Assembly (NCBI GenBank): GCA_943329845.2
Contig: CALQFM020000047.1
Coordinates: 1-33,892 of the forward strand
Reading direction: 5' to 3'
Length of the DNA: 33,892 nt
Origin: Candidatus Kuenenia stuttgartensis
GTDB lineage: Bacteria > Pseudomonadota > Alphaproteobacteria > SMXS01
The translations under genes were made by a program, and so were the position numbers. Below the pieces are notes generated by a model. That model was not told where the DNA came from and ran no database searches. It saw only the letters and a list, made by a program, of their open reading frames with translations. Of the stretch, positions 638 to 28,675 are shown one piece after another; position 1 is the stretch's first letter, and the number at the start of each line of letters is the position of its first letter.

Positions 638-2956
638 TCACATGCGGACCCTACATGCATCTGGTGACACTGTAGAGACCGGCCAGCCAGAGGTCTCCGC
701 CTTCCATCGTCCAGGCAGCGCCGACCGGAAACACGGACTCTCAGTGAAGCATGGGGTCTCGAGCACGGCCCGCACCTTGGCGGCCAGCGCCTGGAGCGTA
801 TAGGGCTTCGACAGCAGCTCGACGTCGGCCTCGAGCCGTGAGCGCATCACCAGATCGTCGCCGATATAGCCCGAGGTGAACAGCACCTTGCCCTTGGGGA
901 AGATTTCCATGAAACGGTCGGCGACGTCCGGACCGGTCATGCCGCCCGGCAGAACCACGTCGGAGATCAACAGATCGATCTTGCCGGATTCGTGGGCGAC
1001 CTGCATGGCCTCGGGTCCGTTCTCGGCGGAGACCACCGAGTATCCGAGGCGCTTGAGGGCGTTGACGATGAACTGGCGGACGTCGGGATCGTCCTCGACG
1101 ACCATGATCCGGTCGCTGCCTTCCTGAATCTCGCGCAAGTCGATCATCTTGTCCTCGGTACGTCCGTCACGGTCTTCCGCCAGGGGCAGGAACAGCGTCA
1201 CCGTGGTGCCCTTGCCGGGGGTGCTGTCGATGTCCACCCGTCCGCCGGACTGGGCCGCGAAGCCATAAACCATGCTGAGACCCAGGCCGGACCCGACGAT
1301 GCTGGACATCTCGCCCTTCTTGGTCGTGAAGAACGGCTCGAACGCCTTTTCCAGCACGTCCTGGCTCATCCCCGTTCCGGTGTCGCTCACGGCGACGGCG
1401 ACCAGGCGATCGGCCTGGCCGGCTTGCTGCCCCGCAGGCCGCTGGTTGGCGCGTGTCGAGATGGTCAGCGTGCCGCCGGCCGGCATGGCGTCGCGGGCAT
1501 TGAGCGCGAGGTTGAGGATGGCATTCTCGAGCTGGCCGGGATCGATCGCGGCACGCACCGGTCCGGCGTCGAATTCCCGGGCGATGACGATGTTCTCCGG
1601 CAGCGTGCGTTCCAGCATGCCGGTCAGGTCGTCCAGCAGCTTGTGAAGGTCGGTTGGGCGCGGTTGGAGCGCCTGCTGGCGCGAGAAGGCAAGCAGTCGC
1701 TGGGTAAGGTCGGAGCCGCGCTCGGCCGCCCGCGCGGCCGATTCGGCGTAGAGCTTCAGTTCCGGGTCGTTTTCAACCCGCTCGACGACGAGGTCGAGGT
1801 TTCCCAGGATCGTGGTCAGCAGATTGTTGAAGTCATGTGCGACCCCGCCTGTCAGCCGTCCCACGGCCTCGAGGCGCTGGGCCCGGTCGAGCCGTTGTTC
1901 GATATCGACCTGGTGTTTGAGGTTCCGCTCGAGCGCGTGTTCGGCGGCGATGCGCGTGGATACGTCGAGCGCCACGCCGACGATGCCCGTGATCCTGCCG
2001 CCAGGGCCATGGCGCGGGCTGATCTGCGCCTCGAACACCACCGAATCGCTGCACTGCCACTCGAACCGCGCCGGCTTGCCGACCAGAGCACGCGCCACAT
2101 GGCGCCTGATGTCGGGCACGTTGTGGAACAGCTCGTAGATGGACGTGCCCGGCGCCGGCCGCGCGACACCGGCGCCTTCATCGGCCAATTGCTTGATGCG
2201 GTCGAAGCCGCGGCCGCAGACAAGTCCAATCTCACCGGTGGAATCGGCGGTCCACAGCAGGATCGGCGCACTTTCGACCAGATTGGTGAGCAGCGAATTG
2301 CTGAATCGCAGCTGCCGTTCCTTTTCGCGGCTGTGGCTCATGTCGGCGAAGGACCCGATGATCGCCGTGGGCGCGCCGTCGGAATCGCGGGTCAGGGAGG
2401 CGTGAAGGTCGACTTCCTTACCGCTGCCGTCCCTGTGCCGCACAATGACCTCACCCCGCCAGCTGCCTTTCTCCCGGACCATGTCGATAACTTCCCTGGC
2501 TTTTGCCGGGTCGAGGAAGAAGTCATCGGCGTGATGCCCCAGAACGTCCTGCAACCCGCCGGCGCCGACCAGGGTGAGAAACGAATCGTTGGCGTATTGG
2601 AGCTTGCCGTCGAGAGCCGCTATAGCGACGCCGCTGATGGAATTGCTCAGCGCGGTTTCCTGGACGCTGCGCTGCTGACGGTACTGGGCGGCCAACAGGA
2701 CCGACAGCAGCATGGGGATGCTGCTGAGGGTAAGCAGGAGCTGGCTGCTGCCCATGGACGTGATATCGAATCCGGAAAGATCGATGAATCCCGCCTGCAA
2801 GGCGGCGGCAAGCGCGATCAGTATCAGCGATGCGCTGCCAAAGAGAATTCGCACGCTGCGGATTCTGATCAAGACGAAGAGGGATACACAGGCGGCGGCA
2901 CCCCAAACGATCGCGCCGGCGGCATTGATGCCACCCAGATGTGCGCTCTCCAGCAT
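638..2956 (-). CDS. Hybrid sensor histidine kinase/response regulator with two PAS domains
   Basis: A membrane-anchored sensor that should autophosphorylate on histidine and pass phosphate to its own receiver. Two or three hydrophobic segments lie at about 12-31, 38-58 and 72-90. PAS-like domains follow at about 100-210 and 220-335. The dimerisation helix has the phosphoacceptor His374 in GVAHDFNNLL. The ATPase domain shows the N box (LNLALNARDAM, about 481-491), G1 (DTGTGM, 525-530) and G2 (GSGLGLS, 555-561). The receiver (about 615-732) has Asp622/Asp623, phosphoacceptor Asp666 (SDVVLPGG), Thr694 and Lys717. No separate response regulator or output gene is adjacent, so it is an orphan. The last 38 or so residues after VRAVLE are Cys/Ser/Pro-rich and unlike a normal receiver end; they run towards the IS-proximal region and may be fused foreign sequence. 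The signal is unknown. Confidence 0.9.
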   Translation of the reverse strand: MLESAHLGGINAAGAIVWGAAACVSLFVLIRIRSVRILFGSASLILIALAAALQAGFIDLSGFDITSMGSSQLLLTLSSIPMLLSVLLAAQYRQQRSVQETALSNSISGVAIAALDGKLQYANDSFLTLVGAGGLQDVLGHHADDFFLDPAKAREVIDMVREKGSWRGEVIVRHRDGSGKEVDLHASLTRDSDGAPTAIIGSFADMSHSREKERQLRFSNSLLTNLVESAPILLWTADSTGEIGLVCGRGFDRIKQLADEGAGVARPAPGTSIYELFHNVPDIRRHVARALVGKPARFEWQCSDSVVFEAQISPRHGPGGRITGIVGVALDVSTRIAAEHALERNLKHQVDIEQRLDRAQRLEAVGRLTGGVAHDFNNLLTTILGNLDLVVERVENDPELKLYAESAARAAERGSDLTQRLLAFSRQQALQPRPTDLHKLLDDLTGMLERTLPENIVIAREFDAGPVRAAIDPGQLENAILNLALNARDAMPAGGTLTISTRANQRPAGQQAGQADRLVAVAVSDTGTGMSQDVLEKAFEPFFTTKKGEMSSIVGSGLGLSMVYGFAAQSGGRVDIDSTPGKGTTVTLFLPLAEDRDGRTEDKMIDLREIQEGSDRIMVVEDDPDVRQFIVNALKRLGYSVVSAENGPEAMQVAHESGKIDLLISDVVLPGGMTGPDVADRFMEIFPKGKVLFTSGYIGDDLVMRSRLEADVELLSKPYTLQALAAKVRAVLETPCFTESPCFRSALPGRWKAETSGWPVSTVSPDACRVRM

Positions 2957-3089: not shown

Positions 3090-4913
3090 CTACTGCGGCG
3101 GTGCGAGCACGGACACCAGCGCGGCAATCGTATCCGCGCCCGGCCAGACCGGACCGTCGGCGGCCTCGATAACGTGCTCCGAACACAGCTCCGATAGTCG
3201 CTGCAGGTAGGCAGCGTGCGGAAGCCCGGCGCGCACCACGGTCAACCGGCAGCGGTCGACGGGAAATCCGGCCGCCGCAACGCTCTCGGGCGTCACGCAC
3301 AGCAGCGCCGCGTCGCAATCGCGATTCTGCAGCAACTGCTGGACAAGCTCGTGGCTCGACCCGCCGGCCGGCGAAAGCCAGGTAGCGCCGACCGTGATCT
3401 CGCCGTCGCCCATCATGCCATATCGGCACACCGGCTCTGGCCCGATCGCCTCCCGAAAGGTCTCGATCACTACGCGCTGGTCCGCGGCCGTGGCAATGAC
3501 GACCACGACCGGTATCCGCCCGAGATCCTTGCCCAGAACAGCGGCGCCGATTTCCGCTTCGCCGATGCCGCTGACGATATGGACGTCGAGGCCCGGGGTC
3601 AGATTGATCTCGATAACGGCGCCAGGCACATCGCGCCATGATCTGGCGATGTCCATGGTGATGTAGTCGATGCCGACGGCTTCGACCTGAGCATTGCGCG
3701 CGATGGCTTCGGCCATGGCGCGGACTTCGGGATGGACCCGGTCGATGACATCGATCGGCGAACCACCGGTGCTGATGTTGGAGTTACCGCGGAGCCGCAC
3801 CCGTGTCCCCGCCGCGGGAACAGTATCCATATCTGCTCCCTGCCGGCGGAGTTCGCCATGGAGCGCCGCGTCGATCACCACGTCAGACAGGTACAGCGCG
3901 CCGACAGGAGAGGAGGTTCGGGCCTCGTTGAAGGCGCCGATCAACTGCCTGACGCTGCTCCTGCCATCGCCGGTGACCCAGGGCGGGTCGCGCCGTGCAG
4001 CGGCGACCAGTGTGCCGCCCACCACCAGCAGGCGATGGTCGTCGCCAGGGATGAACCGCTCCACCAAAATCGACTCCCCGCTCCATTTGCGTGCTTCAGC
4101 GAAAGCCGCCCTGATGTCGTCCTCGGTCTCGACACCGACCATGACGCCGTGACCTTTGCCACGGTCCATAGGCTTGATGACGACCGGGCCCTCCATCCGG
4201 GCGGCGGCGGCCACGGCCTCGTCGGCGCTGTCGGCGGCCATGTGCTGGGCGGCCGGAAAGCCCAGACTTCGCACGAACTGGCCGGTTATCCACTTGTCCC
4301 GGGCGATTCGCTGACCGATGGCGCCGTCCTCGTTGCTCGATGTTTCCAGGTAAAGCCTTCCCAGCCGGCCCCAGCCATAGTGCCACAGCGACCGATGAAA
4401 GAGCGATGGGGCGCAGGGAAGGTCGCGGGACCGGGCGCCCATGGTGGTCGCACGGCTGGTTGGGCCGGGATGCCAGATGCCCGCCGCGGTCCTGAAATGC
4501 CGCGTTGCCGTGGCAAGCGCCGCGTTATCGACCTGGTCTCCCGCGCTTCGGGCGATCAATGTCGACACGATGCCGAGCGCCAGGCGCGCAACCCGCGCGT
4601 TGTGAAATCCGCACCAGCCGACGATCTGGCCTTCGGGGCGCTTCGCCGCACCGGCTTCATCGATCAGGCCATTGGCGGCATTCTGAATTTCCCTGGTCCA
4701 GAGCGCCACGAGCAAGGCGACGCTGAGCAGCGGATCGGCTTTGTCCGGCCGCTTCCGGGACCGTGCCTGCGGGTACTCGGCCCGGAACGCGCTCCAGCCA
4801 GCTTCCGCCCAGGCGCACGCTCGGTCCGCGTCATCCCCCAAAGCCCACAGAAGCGCCGGACTCCGCGCATAGAGGCTGGGCCCGTGATAGATCCTCAGGA
4901 GCTTGATTTCCAT
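3090..4913 (-). CDS. Cyanophycin synthetase-like ATP-grasp protein with degenerate Mur-ligase domain (CphA2-like size)
   Basis: This 607-residue protein follows the CphA plan. It has an N-terminal domain starting MEIKLLRIYHGPSLYA, then an ATP-grasp core (about 205-460). Core motifs are VVIKPMD with Lys247, GKGHGV, VERFIPGDDHR with Glu285, the ribose/loop motif RGNSNISTGGSPIDV (372-389), and the metal-binding VIEINLTPG with Glu435 and Asn437. In CphA1 the next domain is a Mur-ligase module with a GTNGKTT P-loop. Here the equivalent stretch, after GRIPVVVV (465-472), reads IATAADQR, so the P-loop is lost, and the protein stops about 250 residues short of CphA1. This single-ATP-site layout resembles CphA2, which polymerises beta-Asp-Arg dipeptides. 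Only 25 bases separate it from the MAPEG gene upstream. No cyanophycinase or dipeptidase gene is nearby, so the real product is uncertain and may be another amino-acid or peptide conjugate. Confidence 0.82.
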   Translation of the reverse strand: MEIKLLRIYHGPSLYARSPALLWALGDDADRACAWAEAGWSAFRAEYPQARSRKRPDKADPLLSVALLVALWTREIQNAANGLIDEAGAAKRPEGQIVGWCGFHNARVARLALGIVSTLIARSAGDQVDNAALATATRHFRTAAGIWHPGPTSRATTMGARSRDLPCAPSLFHRSLWHYGWGRLGRLYLETSSNEDGAIGQRIARDKWITGQFVRSLGFPAAQHMAADSADEAVAAAARMEGPVVIKPMDRGKGHGVMVGVETEDDIRAAFAEARKWSGESILVERFIPGDDHRLLVVGGTLVAAARRDPPWVTGDGRSSVRQLIGAFNEARTSSPVGALYLSDVVIDAALHGELRRQGADMDTVPAAGTRVRLRGNSNISTGGSPIDVIDRVHPEVRAMAEAIARNAQVEAVGIDYITMDIARSWRDVPGAVIEINLTPGLDVHIVSGIGEAEIGAAVLGKDLGRIPVVVVIATAADQRVVIETFREAIGPEPVCRYGMMGDGEITVGATWLSPAGGSSHELVQQLLQNRDCDAALLCVTPESVAAAGFPVDRCRLTVVRAGLPHAAYLQRLSELCSEHVIEAADGPVWPGADTIAALVSVLAPPQ

Positions 4914-4938: not shown

Positions 4939-5337
4939 TCAGCCCTGGAAGAGCTTGAGCACGAAGCCGATGAGCGAGCCCAGCACGAGAATGTAGATCG
5001 CCGGCATGCTGGAGATCAGACCCGGGCGCCGCGCGGGCGCAGCCTTGTAATAGCCGTGGGCATAGAAGATGCGGCCGGGCAGCCATGTGGCGCCGATGAT
5101 TGCGCCAACGACCGGGTTCCACGCCAGGCAGAACAGCCACAGCCCAGGCAGGAACAGCACCAGATGCTCAATCGTGTTCTGGTGGGCCCGGACATAGCGC
5201 TCATACTCTTCCGGGCCGGTATGGGCCGGCGGTTCGATCTTGAAGCGGCGCCGCGCGATCCCCGATCGCAGAAGCGTATAGTAGCAGACGAGCAGCGCGA
5301 GGCTGCTGACGATGCCCGGATAGACGTAATCGTCCAT
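4939..5337 (-). CDS. MAPEG-family membrane protein
   Basis: A 132-residue integral membrane protein with about four hydrophobic helices. The MAPEG signature is RAHQNTIEHLVLFLPGLWL followed by GRIFYAHGYY, as in microsomal glutathione S-transferase 2/3 and related bacterial proteins. Members often conjugate or reduce lipophilic substrates with glutathione, but many bacterial ones are uncharacterised. The ATG at 5337 was preferred over an upstream start at 5367 because GGGGAGGG lies just before it. The gene lies 68 bases after the MftD-like oxidoreductase and 25 before the CphA-like gene on the same strand, so co-transcription is likely. The substrate is unknown. Confidence 0.8.
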   Translation of the reverse strand: MDDYVYPGIVSSLALLVCYYTLLRSGIARRRFKIEPPAHTGPEEYERYVRAHQNTIEHLVLFLPGLWLFCLAWNPVVGAIIGATWLPGRIFYAHGYYKAAPARRPGLISSMPAIYILVLGSLIGFVLKLFQG

Positions 5338-5405
5338 GAAGCCCTCCCCAGGTGTTGGCACTGTCAACCACTATAGAGACGGCGGTCGCCGGGTGTCGCC
5401 GGTAA

Positions 5406-7686: not shown

Positions 7687-8352
7687 GTGCATACCCTGAT
7701 GACCACAAGCCGGGTCCGATCCCGCGAGGGAACCCGGCAGGCAGAAAAGAGCGATCAGACCCGCCGGCTGATTCTGGATGCGGCCATCGTCTGCCTGAGC
7801 GAGATCGGCTACAACAAGACGACCATGACGGTCATCGCCAAGACCGCCGGTCTGTCGCGCGGCGCCATGCAGTACCATTTCGAGACCATGACCGACGTGC
7901 TGCGGGCGACGCTCGCGCATATCCAGGATCTGCGCCTCGAGGCGCTGCGGCGTACGGCGCGGGAGACCATGCGCGTCGCCGGCAGCGACGGCTTCGCGGC
8001 ACGCGTCGAAGGGCTGTGGAAATTCATGTTCGACCCGCTCAGCGTCGCCTATTTCGAGATTTCCGTTGCGTCGCGCACGGACAACGGCCTGACGTCGCTG
8101 ATGAATCAGGCCCATCAGTCGTTCTGGAACGAGTGGGTGGCCACGGCGCTGGAGGCGTTCCCGGAATGGGAAGGCCGGCAGAGCGACCTGGAACTGGCCT
8201 GCGGCCTTGCCCATGCGGTTCTTGAAGGCCTGGCGCTGCAGCGGTTAACCAACCAGGGCAGCATGGTCCGGTCGGAAAGTGTCCGCGCCTACCTGGTCGA
8301 CCGGGTGCGCGAAATCTTCGAGCACGGCACGCCGGGCGCGTCCCGCAACTGA
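7687..8352 (+). CDS. TetR/AcrR-family transcriptional regulator
   Basis: A 221-residue repressor-type regulator. The N-terminal DNA-binding domain (about 22-75) begins RRLILDAAIVCLSEIGYNKT and holds the helix-turn-helix (TVIAKTAGLSRGAMQYHF). The C-terminal ligand-binding helices are variable and give no ligand. The GTG at 7687 has GGAGG four bases upstream; an in-frame ATG at 7699 is an alternative. It follows the SDR gene on the same strand and probably controls that gene and/or the divergent MftD-like operon. The end faces a convergent oxidoreductase gene across a strong terminator. Confidence 0.92.
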   Translation: MHTLMTTSRVRSREGTRQAEKSDQTRRLILDAAIVCLSEIGYNKTTMTVIAKTAGLSRGAMQYHFETMTDVLRATLAHIQDLRLEALRRTARETMRVAGSDGFAARVEGLWKFMFDPLSVAYFEISVASRTDNGLTSLMNQAHQSFWNEWVATALEAFPEWEGRQSDLELACGLAHAVLEGLALQRLTNQGSMVRSESVRAYLVDRVREIFEHGTPGASRN

Positions 8353-10200: not shown

Positions 10201-11448
10201 CTATTCGCCGGGCGCCAGCTTGGGCTGCGGTTGCGCCGGCGCGAGCGGTTTGAGCAGCAGCATCGCCAGCATGGCAGGGACCAGGATCACCAGGAATACG
10301 TTGAGCGCCAGCGAGAAGTTGCCGGTGCTGTCGCGGATGCGTCCGGCGATCCACGGGCCGGTGCCGGTAATGATGGTCGCCGGCCCGAACATGCTCATGA
10401 CCCGGCCGAACGACTGTGGCCCGAAGCGGGTGCTGATCAGCGACGCCAGCAGCGGCAGGAATGCGCCGCCGCCCAGGCCGAGCATCACGGCCGCCAGCAA
10501 CATCAGCGGATAGACGGGCTGGGTGGCGAACAGGAGCAGGCCCAGGGTCAGCAGCGAGTTGGTCACCCAGAACAGCACCCGCAGATCGACCCGGTCCGCT
10601 GTCATGCCGCAAAGAATCTTGCTCAGCAGCGCGCAGCCCGAAAACAGCGATACGAGGAAGGCTGCGTTCATGGGGCTGACGCCGACCTGCCGCGCCAGCG
10701 GACCGATATTCTGCGCGACGGCCGCCAGCGCCATCGCCATGGGCACCAGCGACGCCACCATGACCCAGAAGGTGCGCTCGCGCAGGATCTGCACGATGGT
10801 CCATTTCGGGAATACGCGGGCGGCGGCCCTGGCGGCGCTGATCTCGCTCTCGGGCTCGGGCTCGATCCCCATCTGCTCGGGCGAGTTGCGCACGACGAAC
10901 CAGACCGCCGGCACGATCAGCACGACGGCCACGGCCGCCAGTATGAGGTGTGCATCGCGCCAGCCGAAGGCGAGGACCAGCTGGGTCACGATGATCGGCA
11001 TCACCATGCCGCCGATCGAAGCGCCCGCGGTCGAGAGGCCGATGGCAAGCCCGCGCCGCCCCCTGAACCATTTCACCGCCAGCGTCTGCGCCGGCAACAG
11101 GCCGGCGAGCAGGACGCCGGGGGAGATGAACGCCCCGTAGACCGCGACGATCTGCCAAACCGCGTCGACCATGGAGAGTAGCGCCATGCCCGTCGCGGCC
11201 AGCACGGTTCCGGTGATGATCATGGCCCGGATCGATGTGCGGTCGATGAACGTGCCGGGGATCGGCGCCAGCAGGCACTGGACCGCCGTAAAGATCAGGA
11301 TGGTGATCTGCAGGTCGCCGACGCCGGCGTGAAACTCGCGCGACCACTCGGTGATCAGCAGGGTGAACGACGACGATGTCGAGCCTATCAGGATGCCCTG
11401 GAACAGGACGGTGACCGTCAGGACGTTCCAACCGTGATACCAGCGCAT
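10201..11448 (-). CDS. MFS transporter, tandem copy 2 (monocarboxylate/OFA-like)
   Basis: A 415-residue major-facilitator permease with about 12 hydrophobic helices. The inter-helix loop KWFRGRRGLAIGLS matches the conserved MFS loop region, and GWRDAHLILAA follows in the N-half. The overall look is of the OFA/monocarboxylate-porter branch, starting MRWYHGW. The ATG at 11448 has GGAGA before it. The gene follows its paralogue by 20 bases, and roughly half the residues match along the whole length, so the pair arose by tandem duplication. The substrate is not deducible, but an organic anion is likely for this branch. Confidence 0.88.
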   Translation of the reverse strand: MRWYHGWNVLTVTVLFQGILIGSTSSSFTLLITEWSREFHAGVGDLQITILIFTAVQCLLAPIPGTFIDRTSIRAMIITGTVLAATGMALLSMVDAVWQIVAVYGAFISPGVLLAGLLPAQTLAVKWFRGRRGLAIGLSTAGASIGGMVMPIIVTQLVLAFGWRDAHLILAAVAVVLIVPAVWFVVRNSPEQMGIEPEPESEISAARAAARVFPKWTIVQILRERTFWVMVASLVPMAMALAAVAQNIGPLARQVGVSPMNAAFLVSLFSGCALLSKILCGMTADRVDLRVLFWVTNSLLTLGLLLFATQPVYPLMLLAAVMLGLGGGAFLPLLASLISTRFGPQSFGRVMSMFGPATIITGTGPWIAGRIRDSTGNFSLALNVFLVILVPAMLAMLLLKPLAPAQPQPKLAPGE

Positions 11449-11468
11449 GGCAGTCTCCGTTCCGGGCT

Positions 11469-12722
11469 CTAGGCGGCGGGTTGTCCGCCGGCGATCTTCT
11501 GTTGGCTGATGGTCGCCAGCGGTTTGAGCAGCAGCATGACGAGTACCGCGGGAATCAGGATCACCAGGGTGATCTGCAGCGCCACTTCGTAGCTGCCCTG
11601 ATGGTCGCGCAGCCAGCCTGCCAACCACGGCCCGAAGCCGCCGAGCAACGCGAACGGCCCCACCAGGCCCATCACCCGGCCGAAGGATTTGGGGCCGAAC
11701 CGGCTGCTGACGACAGCGGCGAGCAGCGGCAGGAAGCCGCCGGCGCCGAGGCCGAGCAGGGCGCTCGCCGCCAGCATCACCGCGTAGGATGGTTGCAGCA
11801 TGAACAGGAAGATCGCCGCGCCGATGGACAGGTTGGCCAGCCAGAACAGGCTGCGCAAATCCCAGCGGTCGGTCACCAGGCCGAAGAACAGCTTGCTGAC
11901 CGCCGCGCTTCCCAGCATCAGGGACACCAGATAGGACGCTTGCTGCGGGCCGATCCCCGAATCGTTGGCGATGGGGCTCAGATTGTGCTGGACCGACCCC
12001 AGCGCCGTCGCCATCGGCACGAACGCCAGGATCATGATCCAGAAGTTGCGCTCCTTGAGGATCGTCACGGTCGTCCAGTCCGGGAACTCGCGCGCCGCGA
12101 TACGGGCGGCACTGATCTCGGTTTCGGGGTCGGGCTCGACGCCAAGTTCCTCGGGGTTGTTGCGGACGATCAGCCAGACCAGCGGCACGATGGCCACGAG
12201 CGCGATCGCGGCAAGGATCAGGTGCGCGTCGCGCCAGCCCACCTCGAGAAACAGCAGCGTGACCAGTGGCGGCATGACGAAGCCGCCGATGGAGGTGCCG
12301 ATCGTCGAGATGCCAACGGCGAAGCCGCGGCGCCCGCGGAACCATTTCGCGGCAAGCGTCTGGGCGGCGAGCGGACCGGCGAGCAGGGTGCCGACGGCGA
12401 TCAGCGTGGCGTAGACCGCGACGATCTGCCAGACCGCGTGGATCTGCGAGATCAGGGCAAGACCGAGGACTGTGATGACGGCGCCGGCCGAGACGAGCAC
12501 GCGGATCGAAGCCCTATCCATGGCCTTGCCGGCGAACGGTGCGAGGACGCCCTGGACGATTCCCAGGATTGTGATGCTCAGGATGAGGTCGCCCCGTGGC
12601 GCGCCGAAGTCCTTCACCCACTCGGTGACCCACAGAGTGAAGGAGTTGACAGTGAAGCCGAACAGGATCGCCTGGAACGCCACGCCGACCGCGAGGACGC
12701 TCCAACCGTAGTACCAACGCAT
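11469..12722 (-). CDS. MFS transporter, tandem copy 1
   Basis: A 417-residue 12-helix permease, first of the tandem pair, beginning MRWYYGWSVLAVGVAF. It shares with copy 2 the stretches WQIVAVY, KWFRGRRG, GWRDAHLILAA and FGPKSFGRVMG. The central cytoplasmic loop (EPDPETEISAARIAAREFPDW) is similarly acidic in both. The start at 12722 is preceded by GGAGA. No catabolic enzyme is adjacent on this strand. Two paralogous permeases this close could have split substrates or form a functional pair. Confidence 0.88.
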   Translation of the reverse strand: MRWYYGWSVLAVGVAFQAILFGFTVNSFTLWVTEWVKDFGAPRGDLILSITILGIVQGVLAPFAGKAMDRASIRVLVSAGAVITVLGLALISQIHAVWQIVAVYATLIAVGTLLAGPLAAQTLAAKWFRGRRGFAVGISTIGTSIGGFVMPPLVTLLFLEVGWRDAHLILAAIALVAIVPLVWLIVRNNPEELGVEPDPETEISAARIAAREFPDWTTVTILKERNFWIMILAFVPMATALGSVQHNLSPIANDSGIGPQQASYLVSLMLGSAAVSKLFFGLVTDRWDLRSLFWLANLSIGAAIFLFMLQPSYAVMLAASALLGLGAGGFLPLLAAVVSSRFGPKSFGRVMGLVGPFALLGGFGPWLAGWLRDHQGSYEVALQITLVILIPAVLVMLLLKPLATISQQKIAGGQPAA

Positions 12723-26906: not shown

Positions 26907-27194
26907 ATGTCGGTTGATACGAAAACGGTCGCACGCATCGCCCATCTGGCGCGCCTCAAGGTGCCGGAAGACAGGCTCGAGCCCCTGGCGGGCGAGCTGA
27001 ACCAGCTGCTGGCGTGGGTCGAGCAATTGTCCGAGGTCAACACCGACAACGTGCCGCCGCTGACCAGCGTGGTACATGCCCGCCTGCCCAGGCGTGACGA
27101 CGTCGTCACCGACGGCGACCGGCAGGCCGACGTGCTGGCCAACGCACCCGATGCCCAGAACGGCTTCTTCGCCGTGCCGAAAGTGATCGAATAA
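26907..27194 (+). CDS. gatC: Asp-tRNA(Asn)/Glu-tRNA(Gln) amidotransferase subunit C
   Basis: A 95-residue small subunit that clamps GatA and GatB together in the amidotransferase that converts Glu-tRNA(Gln) and Asp-tRNA(Asn) to the correct aminoacyl-tRNAs. Typical motifs are the start [17 protein letters not shown] and the ending [12 protein letters not shown]...[17 protein letters not shown]. The start at 26907 fits the family. An upstream in-frame extension to 26826 is non-conserved. The stop TAA overlaps the gatA ATG by one base. Confidence 0.97.
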
Positions 27195-28675
27195 TGAGCG
27201 AGCTTACCGACCTGACCATTGCCGGCGCGCTGTCCGGCCTCGACAAGGGCGAGTTCACCTCCCGCGAGCTGACCCAGGCCTATATCGCCGAGGTCGAGAA
27301 CGGCCGTGCGCTCAACGCCTTCACCACCGAAACGCCGGACAAGGCGCTGGAGATGGCCGACGCCGCCGACGCCGCGCGCCGCTCGGGCGATGTCGGGCCG
27401 CTGAATGGCATCCCGCTCGCCATCAAGGACCTGTTCTGCACCAAGGGCGTGCTGACCACGGCGTCGAGCCACATCCTGCATGGGTTCAAGCCGCCCTATG
27501 AATCGAGCGTCACGTCCAATCTGTGGCGCGACGGCGCGGTGATGCTGGGCAAGGTCAGCCTGGACGAATTCGCCATGGGCTCGTCCAACGAGACCAGCTT
27601 CTATGGCCCGGTCCAGAATCCATGGCGCACCACCGACGGCAAGGCCCGCGTGCCGGGCGGCTCGTCGGGCGGTTCGGCCGCCGCGGTCGCCGCCCATCTG
27701 GCCGCCGCCGCCACCGGCACCGACACCGGCGGCTCGATCCGCCAGCCGGCCAGCTTCTGCGGCCTGGCCGGCATCAAGCCGACCTATGGCCGCTGCTCGC
27801 GCTGGGGCATCATCGCCTTCGCCTCGTCGCTCGACCAGGCCGGGCCGATCACCCGCAACGTGGAAGACGCGGCGATCATGCTGCGTTCCATGGCCGGCTA
27901 CGATCCCAAGGATTCCACCTCGATCAACACGCCCGTGCCCGACTACCGCAAGGCGCTGACCGGCGATATCCGCGGCCTGAAGATCGGCATACCGCAGGAA
28001 TACCGCATGGAGGGCACGCCGCCCGACGTGCTGGCGCTGTGGGACCGCGGCATCCAGTGGATGAAGGACGCCGGCGCCCAGATTGTCGACATCTCGCTGC
28101 CCCACACCAAATACGCCCTCGCGACCTACTATATCGTCGCCCCGGCCGAGGCCAGCTCCAACCTGGCCCGCTATGACGGGGTGCGCTACGGCCTGCGCGA
28201 GCAGGGCGGCAACCTGATCGAGATGTACGAGAACACCCGCGGCGCCGGGTTCGGCGAGGAAGTGCAGCGCCGCATCCTGATCGGCACCTATGTGCTGTCG
28301 GCTGGCTATTACGACGCCTACTATTTGAAGGCGCAGAAGGTCCGCACCCTGATCGCCCAGGATTTCGAGCAGGCGTTCGGCCGGGTCGACGCGATCCTGA
28401 CGCCGACCGCGCCGTGCTCGGCGTTCTCGCCGGGCGAGAAGTCCGACGATCCCATCTCCATGTATCTCAATGACGTGTTCACCGTGCCGGCCTCGCTGGC
28501 CGGCATCCCGGGCATGTCGGTGCCCGCCGGCATCTGCAGCGCGGGCCTGCCGCTCGGCCTGCAGATCCTCGGACGGCCGTTCGAGGAGGAGACCGTGCTG
28601 AAGGTCGGCCACGTCATCGAGCAGGCCGCCGCATTCGGCGCCCGGCCCAGAATCTGGTGGAAGGAGGCCGCGTGA
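27194..28675 (+). CDS. gatA: Asp-tRNA(Asn)/Glu-tRNA(Gln) amidotransferase subunit A
   Basis: A 493-residue amidase-signature enzyme that releases ammonia from glutamine for GatB. The Ser-cisSer-Lys triad is intact: Lys78 in LAIKDLF, cis-Ser157 in [12 protein letters not shown], and nucleophile Ser181 in [12 protein letters not shown]. The length is normal. It is coupled to gatC by TAATG and to gatB by TGATG overlaps, so the three subunits are translated together. Presence of GatCAB implies the organism makes Gln-tRNA(Gln) and/or Asn-tRNA(Asn) indirectly, as is usual in alphaproteobacteria. Confidence 0.98.

Follow-up and report, generated by a model that had tools for sequence, protein, structure and literature searches.

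A shortened CphA-derived ATP-grasp protein from an alphaproteobacterium, probably a one-site amide ligase rather than a cyanophycin enzyme

The closest described systems are the cyanophycin synthetases, in which an N domain, an ATP-grasp (G) domain and a Mur-ligase-like (M) domain lie in one chain. The residue roles of the G site used here are those of the TeCphA1 structure, in which Arg458 lies near the alpha-carboxylate of the incoming Asp and His267 is thought to stabilise the acyl phosphate (PMC9427784). The HxxEH motif of the CphA1 N domain cleaves primers (PMC9262961), and the cyanobacterial CphA2 has lost the P-loop and the lid module of its M domain (PMC9427784). A puzzle noted for this system is that some genomes have CphA1 without a recognisable cyanophycinase (PMC10206079).

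We analysed one 33,892-nucleotide stretch of DNA (the window), on the minus strand of which positions 3090 to 4913 form an ORF complete from ATG to stop, its product being termed the window protein below. The parts of this gene, with the basis of each assignment, are as follows.

3090..4913, minus: CphA-derived ATP-grasp ligase gene, 607 aa (profile and homology matches)
4473..4913, minus: N domain, residues 1–147, aligning with CphA1 N domains, without HxxEH (homology and motif check)
3525..4472, minus: G domain, ATP-grasp, residues 148–463 (alignment to TeCphA1)
4155..4157, minus: Lys253 codon; CphA1 counterpart His267 (alignment)
3585..3587, minus: Asp443 codon; CphA1 counterpart Arg458 (alignment)
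3240..3524, minus: remnant of the M core, residues 464–558 (alignment and hhalign)
3474..3497, minus: IATAADQR, where the M P-loop region has GTNGKTT (alignment)
3093..3239, minus: C-terminal tail, residues 559–607, beyond the hhalign match to CphA1 (hhalign)

The window protein matches PRK14016 with E=2.9e-92, at a score well below the family cut-off, and TIGR02068 with E=5.9e-75, where 252.8 bits against a cut-off of 850 bits leave it short of the CphA1 threshold. Its best solved relatives are 7lgm (E=1.1e-55) and 7lgn, both named cyanophycin synthase, followed by the shorter chains 7ta5 (629 aa) and 8fxh (642 aa), whose database names are glutathione synthase and RimK domain-containing protein and which we take, from their length among other things, to be CphA2. 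Profile-profile alignment (hhalign) of four window-type proteins with five named plasmid CphA1 sequences gave a probability of 100% and E=1.2e-64, with window residues 3–558 aligned to CphA1 residues 1–585 of 934 and ~350 CphA1 residues left without a counterpart. Judged from these comparisons, the relationship of the window protein to CphA is far beyond chance. An earlier note on this DNA had described a protein shortened to 607 residues, with a conserved ATP-grasp core and a lost GTNGKTT P-loop. This description holds, with the ORF complete, the alignment ending at CphA1 residue 585, the motifs Lys247, Glu285, RGNSNISTGG (375–384) and EINLTPG (435–441) all at their given places, and IATAADQR (473–480) aligned where the P-loop would lie.

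The M domain ends after its first part, as the hhalign match stops at window residue 558. A frameshift or a concealed Mur module is ruled out, with tblastn of five C-terminal parts of CphA1 or CphA1-like proteins against all frames of the whole window giving a best E of 0.51, and with the orthologues L040 (615 aa) and L041 (625 aa; 58–59% identity) truncated like the window protein. A full Mur module recoverable by frameshift correction, which would have refuted the earlier note, was thus not found in the window. The pN/pS values of the M remnant and the G domain, which are rough because synonymous sites are well diverged, are 0.42 and 0.41 respectively between the window and L040, 0.53 and 0.37 between the window and L041, and 0.55 and 0.40 between L040 and L041. 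By these values the M remnant is not decaying freely. The N region (0.69) and the C-terminal tail (0.68) are under loose constraint in the comparison of the window with L040.

The N domain bears less on the identity of the protein than it might seem. In phmmer searches the window N domain aligns with one solved CphA1 (7lgn), starting at residue 7, with four other CphA1 entries aligning with the window protein only from residue 116 or 149–150, and with 7ta5 and 8fxh, the presumed CphA2 chains, aligning from residue 148. The CphA1 profile aligns the whole window N domain, CphA1 being the only comparison profile used, and the N-domain evidence against CphA2 identity therefore looks weaker than it first appeared. 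Of 14 full-length CphA1 rows, 12 carry the HxxEH motif, which is missing from every one of the 30 members in the window genus, some of these being cut short N-terminally.

Counterparts of TeCphA1 K220, K261, R309, R323, N394, S396, D431, E450 and G456 are all kept in the window protein. Throughout the genus, Lys220, Lys261, Arg309 and Asp431 are kept in 30/30 aligned members, and Glu450 in all 29 that have a residue there. R323, N394 and S396 bind aspartate in CphA1, yet give no support for aspartate as a substrate here, since the aligned GshAB row keeps them too. In contrast to the ATP site, the amine pocket is altered. Arg458 is found in 16/16 CphA1 rows and in 3/28 genus members, with Asp at its place in all five proteins of the window clade (the window protein and its four nearest relatives), and His267 is found in 16/16 CphA1 rows and in 0/30 genus members; four of these 16 rows received the CphA1 label after their residues had been seen. 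His267 cannot be taken as a firm mark of cyanophycin synthesis, with ten P-loop-intact rows, all of which have Arg458, carrying another residue at this place: Gln in eight GTNGKTT-containing rows that lie outside the class, and Lys in L065 and L068. Arg458 is the better mark of the two. A structure model built from an alignment of the window protein and L039 only (mean pLDDT 43.8, pTM 0.29) was too poor to use.

In two G-domain trees the window protein groups with L040, L041, L042 and L043 (support 100/98 and 100/97), L044 and L046 being next to join. The window group and CphA2 form separate starred clades in both trees, with CphA1 rows spread over other starred groups and long branches leading to GshAB, L080 and L083. 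The first tree, from which six N-acetylglutaminylglutamine-synthetase rows were left out, places the window protein inside an alphaproteobacterial set of 38 rows (92/84), puts CphA2 among CphA1 with weak support (80/61), and would require five changes for loss of the M P-loop. In the larger tree, with rows from outside the class and with these six rows and a further eight near-duplicates or short rows left out, the backbone collapsed, and only the smaller starred clades are therefore claimed. AU tests rejected a clade of the window group with CphA1 (p=0.003) and disfavoured one with CphA2 (p=0.087, not rejected; two presumed CphA2 rows only). A single clade of the 41 P-loop-less rows, as a shared rather than convergent loss of the P-loop would give, was not rejected either (p=0.153), L070 and L092, which are cut before the M domain, having been counted as P-loop-positive by inference from the next frame of L070 and from L052, the near twin of L092. 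CphA1 membership of the window protein, which the earlier note had wanted checked by phylogeny, is ruled out by the first of these tests together with the TIGR02068 score.

Compared with CphA2, the window protein has a similar length (607 aa against 629–642 aa), an ATP-grasp G domain, Lys at the place of His267, and an M domain that has likewise lost its P-loop and lid module. It differs in having Asp where CphA2 has Phe or Tyr at the place of Arg458, and in belonging to a separate, alphaproteobacterial clade and a genome without a detected TIGR02069 cyanophycinase. The CphA2-like reading of the earlier note is thus upheld for the ATP/Mg residues, the dead and truncated Mur module and the length, but the label itself is not supported, the two groups forming separate clades and the AU test disfavouring a joint clade without rejecting it. 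With CphA1 the window protein shares the N domain, the G domain and the first part of the M domain, but it lacks the M P-loop, the second part of the M domain, His267, Arg458 and HxxEH.

Two further relatives belong to the same ATP-grasp branch. For GshAB, the one row aligned shares R309, R323, N394, S396, D431 and E450 as well as Asp at the place of Arg458; it lies on a long branch apart, and the NCBIfam match (E=1.5e-35) is confined to the ATP-grasp part, with the window protein scoring 122.8 bits against a cut-off of 425 for PRK02471 (GshAB/GshF), at profile positions 478–740 only. N-acetylglutaminylglutamine synthetase (TIGR03103, E=8.3e-46) also matches in its ATP-grasp part alone, its residues at 267 and 458 being Gln and Ala. 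Outside the genus, the phylum sample described below gave its strongest matches, covering approximately residues 1–561 of the window protein, to tandem CphA-like pairs from the same phylum but another class, presumably betaproteobacterial, which differ from the window protein in forming their own starred clade and in that one copy in each of the six pairs keeps GTNGKTT and Arg458. In these pairs (L135–L140, from G686, G618, G536, G583, G730 and G655), copy one has Gln at 267, Arg458 and GTNGKTT, and copy two has His267 together with Gly at position 323, no residue at 396, and Leu at 458; in four or more of the six, the P-loop region of its M domain is altered. The copies appear to complement each other, as the partners of a heteromer would.

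The order of the window organism was represented by ten genomes of one family, seven of them from the window genus. The seven genus genomes hold 30 family members at E up to 1e-25 (four in the genome of the window itself and 4, 8, 2, 3, 3 and 6 in the others), with none found at this threshold in the other three genomes of the order. One of the 30, L052 (G007), is of near-full length with the P-loop variant GSMGKT and scores 577 bits, under the cut-off, its near twin L092 (G006) being a partial relative. CphA1 above the cut-off and cyanophycinase (TIGR02069) were found in 0/10 genomes of the order, IaaA (PF01112) in one (G002), and IadA above the cut-off in none, with weak matches in five. The genome search that the earlier note had proposed, for full-length cphA, cyanophycinase and IadA, accordingly returned nothing above the cut-offs in the genome of the window, which also has no IaaA and no weak IadA match. 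This breakdown search comprised TIGR02069, PF01112 and IadA; among further cyanophycinase or dipeptidase families are the dipeptide hydrolases that PMC10206079 names.

Beyond the order, 41/385 genomes of a class sample (own genus included) match at E up to 1e-20, among them CphA1 and N-acetylglutaminylglutamine synthetases, and 27/398 genomes of a phylum sample (own genome included) match at E up to 1e-45. Many of the latter 27 carry at least two matches, the six that were fetched being the tandem pairs described above; copy numbers in both samples are lower bounds, since at most three candidates were scored per genome. A search of genome contigs with the window protein returned a single locus, L039, which is the same stretch as L040, and a plasmid search returned 129 records, none spanning 80% of the query. 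None of the literature matches listed concerned one-site ligases of CphA type from Sphingomonadales.

Three observations concern other members or relatives of the family. L112:9296-16129 holds three consecutive family members, the last two of them separated by a 376-aa protein with a weak ATP-grasp match (E=0.007, under the cut-off). L103:5494-8508, on a Microvirga plasmid and annotated as CapA family, combines a CphA-like ATP-grasp with a PGA_cap capsule domain in one fusion protein. At L116:119-2107 (G372) a family member is split by a stop, and a separate downstream frame has the Mur-type P-loop GSNGKTT.

The genes around the window ligase are as follows.

638..2956, minus: PAS hybrid histidine kinase, a conserved neighbour, downstream of the ligase past a 133-nt A+T-rich gap
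4939..5367, minus: MAPEG membrane protein, start at 5337 or 5367, 25 nt upstream of the ligase; also at L040 and L041
5406..6539, minus: FMN-dependent dehydrogenase (PF01070); also at L042
6688..7500, plus: short-chain dehydrogenase, divergent, a conserved neighbour
7687..8352, plus: TetR regulator, a conserved neighbour

The MAPEG and FMN-enzyme neighbours pointed out in the earlier note are thus present. The divergent short-chain dehydrogenase and TetR genes, followed on the opposite strand by the MAPEG, ligase and histidine kinase genes, are shared by G000, G003 and G005, with 25 nt between the MAPEG and ligase genes in the window, 13 nt at L040 and 24 nt at L041. Within this arrangement only G000 has an intervening FMN gene, none being called at the corresponding position of L040 or L041. 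No MAPEG gene is called beside L042 (G004), where the FMN gene is present, or beside L043. Further along the window, positions 10201-12722 hold two tandem transporters of one BLAST cluster, also found at L040 and L041, of which the one scanned is MFS_1.

The neighbours of other family members are frequently transferases. L043, of the window's starred clade, carries a fused C-terminal glycosyltransferase domain (PF13704, E=9.4e-20), and family members are adjoined by a methyltransferase at L049 (contig C22 of the window's own genome), by a sulfotransferase-family protein at L056 (contig C33, own genome) and by a formyltransferase-like protein at L046. At L058 a P450 and a glycosyltransferase 2 lie beside the ligase, followed by a phosphodiesterase-family enzyme and a putative receptor, which we take to be of TonB type, and the L093 family member is accompanied by three consecutive genes, for a phosphodiesterase-like protein, for a glycosyltransferase 1 and for a sulfotransferase. 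Five methyltransferases, three glycosyltransferases, one sulfotransferase and one formyltransferase-like protein make up 10 of the 28 close neighbours, defined as distinct, on the same strand and within 200 nt. These were drawn from 23 of 31 representative loci (the other eight having none), hand-picked as one per context group, with two neighbours that were pieces of the family dropped.

Among 92 operonic control genes of the same loci there were two glycosyltransferase-2 genes and no methyltransferase family with at least two members, in a tally listing 25 of 124 families. Fisher tests gave p=0.003 for methyltransferases (5/28 against an assumed 1/92) and p=6e-5 for the four transferase classes (10/28 against an assumed 4/92), values that are rough because a few more such transferases may lie among the control families beyond these 25; the transferase classes were also named post hoc, after the neighbours had been seen. 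The close neighbours of the window ligase itself (MAPEG, histidine kinase) are not transferases. The frequent presence of glycosyl-, methyl- or sulfotransferase genes beside relatives, together with the one fusion, hints at a role in conjugate biosynthesis.

Two of these contexts extend further. The region L049:3123-14077 (C22), with counterparts at L050, L051 and L059, is a possible biosynthetic gene cluster, comprising the family member, a methyltransferase, chorismate-binding and AMP-binding enzymes, a second methyltransferase, a 259-aa protein without a Pfam match, and a gene from the same cluster as the one at window positions 27194-28675, presumably an amidase. The type I phosphodiesterase-like gene follows the ligase directly at L093 and L098 and lies one gene further at L058; at 1e-5 the protein of L093 matches no Pfam family, but by BLAST it clusters with its L058 and L098 counterparts.

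Taken together, the window protein is probably a one-site ATP-grasp amide ligase of CphA ancestry and not a cyanophycin enzyme, a reading based on sequence comparison to which we assign a probability of roughly 0.57. Cyanophycin chemistry is made improbable by the replacement of Arg458 with Asp443 and of His267 with Lys253, and by the lack of matches to the searched breakdown families in the genome. A functional CphA2, whose single site re-polymerises beta-Asp-Arg or some other beta-aspartyl dipeptide, would account for the architecture and length, which are as in 7ta5 and 8fxh, and for the Lys shared with those chains at the place of His267, and neither the joint clade with CphA2 nor a clade of all P-loop-less proteins was rejected. 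We nevertheless regard it as improbable, with cyanophycinase (TIGR02069) for the supply of dipeptide and polymer-making CphA1 above the cut-off both found in none of the ten genomes, the two groups in separate starred clades, and Asp rather than Phe or Tyr at the place of Arg458. The suggestion in the earlier note of a different amino-acid or peptide ligation is better supported than its CphA2 label. A frameshifted or truncated CphA1, for which the shortened M domain might be taken, has a negligible probability: the C-terminal Mur sequence is absent from all frames of the window, the truncation is common to two other genomes, and the next gene is only 133 nt off.

The MAPEG family is linked to glutathione chemistry, and because of this neighbour the main rival is a thiol-peptide ligase, joining an amino acid or amine onto a glutathione-like peptide and working with the MAPEG protein. 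The MAPEG gene adjoins the ligase in three genomes, and GshAB belongs to the same ATP-grasp branch, the one GshAB aligned also having Asp at the place of Arg458; however, the MAPEG neighbour is uncalled beside L042 and L043, and the window protein sits among CphA-like proteins with GshAB on a distant long branch, such that we consider this role unlikely. More doubtful still is a pseudoenzyme retained in a binding or regulatory role. Whilst the M site, Arg458 and His267 are lost and the N domain and tail are loosely constrained, the ATP/Mg residues are unchanged in every genus member that has a residue there.

For the favoured one-site amide ligase, the chemistry of the family suggests that the G domain would hold an acid or short peptide, that ATP would phosphorylate the terminal carboxylate of this substrate, and that an amine would then attack the acyl phosphate to give an amide. 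The Mur module, with its P-loop and second part gone, would be a retained scaffold without an ATP site. A free alpha-amino acid held in the manner of CphA1 is an improbable amine donor, and a cationic or amide-capped amine would suit Asp443. Adjacency in three genomes suggests that the ligase may cooperate with the membrane MAPEG protein encoded upstream. Across the genus, the neighbours of its relatives suggest that expansion of the family may have led to amide bonds in different small-molecule or glycan conjugates.

More tentatively, and with less confidence than for the window protein itself, the family may be a lineage-specific, fast-diverging set of CphA-derived one-site ligases, diverted from the synthesis of a storage polymer to that of many different small molecules or glycan conjugates with amide links, with paralogues having re-cut amine pockets (267, 456 and 458) and tailoring partners of their own (a glycosyl-, methyl-, sulfo- or formyltransferase, a P450 or a MAPEG protein). 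CphA-like proteins are named cyanophycin synthetase or glutathione synthase, among others, in the collections searched; if these readings are true, such names mislead for the window genus. The family would then offer amide ligases that are as yet unexplored and for which structural templates exist, and would be a test case for the passage from a two-site polymerase to a set of one-site ligases. It may also bear on the puzzle of genomes with CphA1 and no recognisable cyanophycinase raised in PMC10206079.
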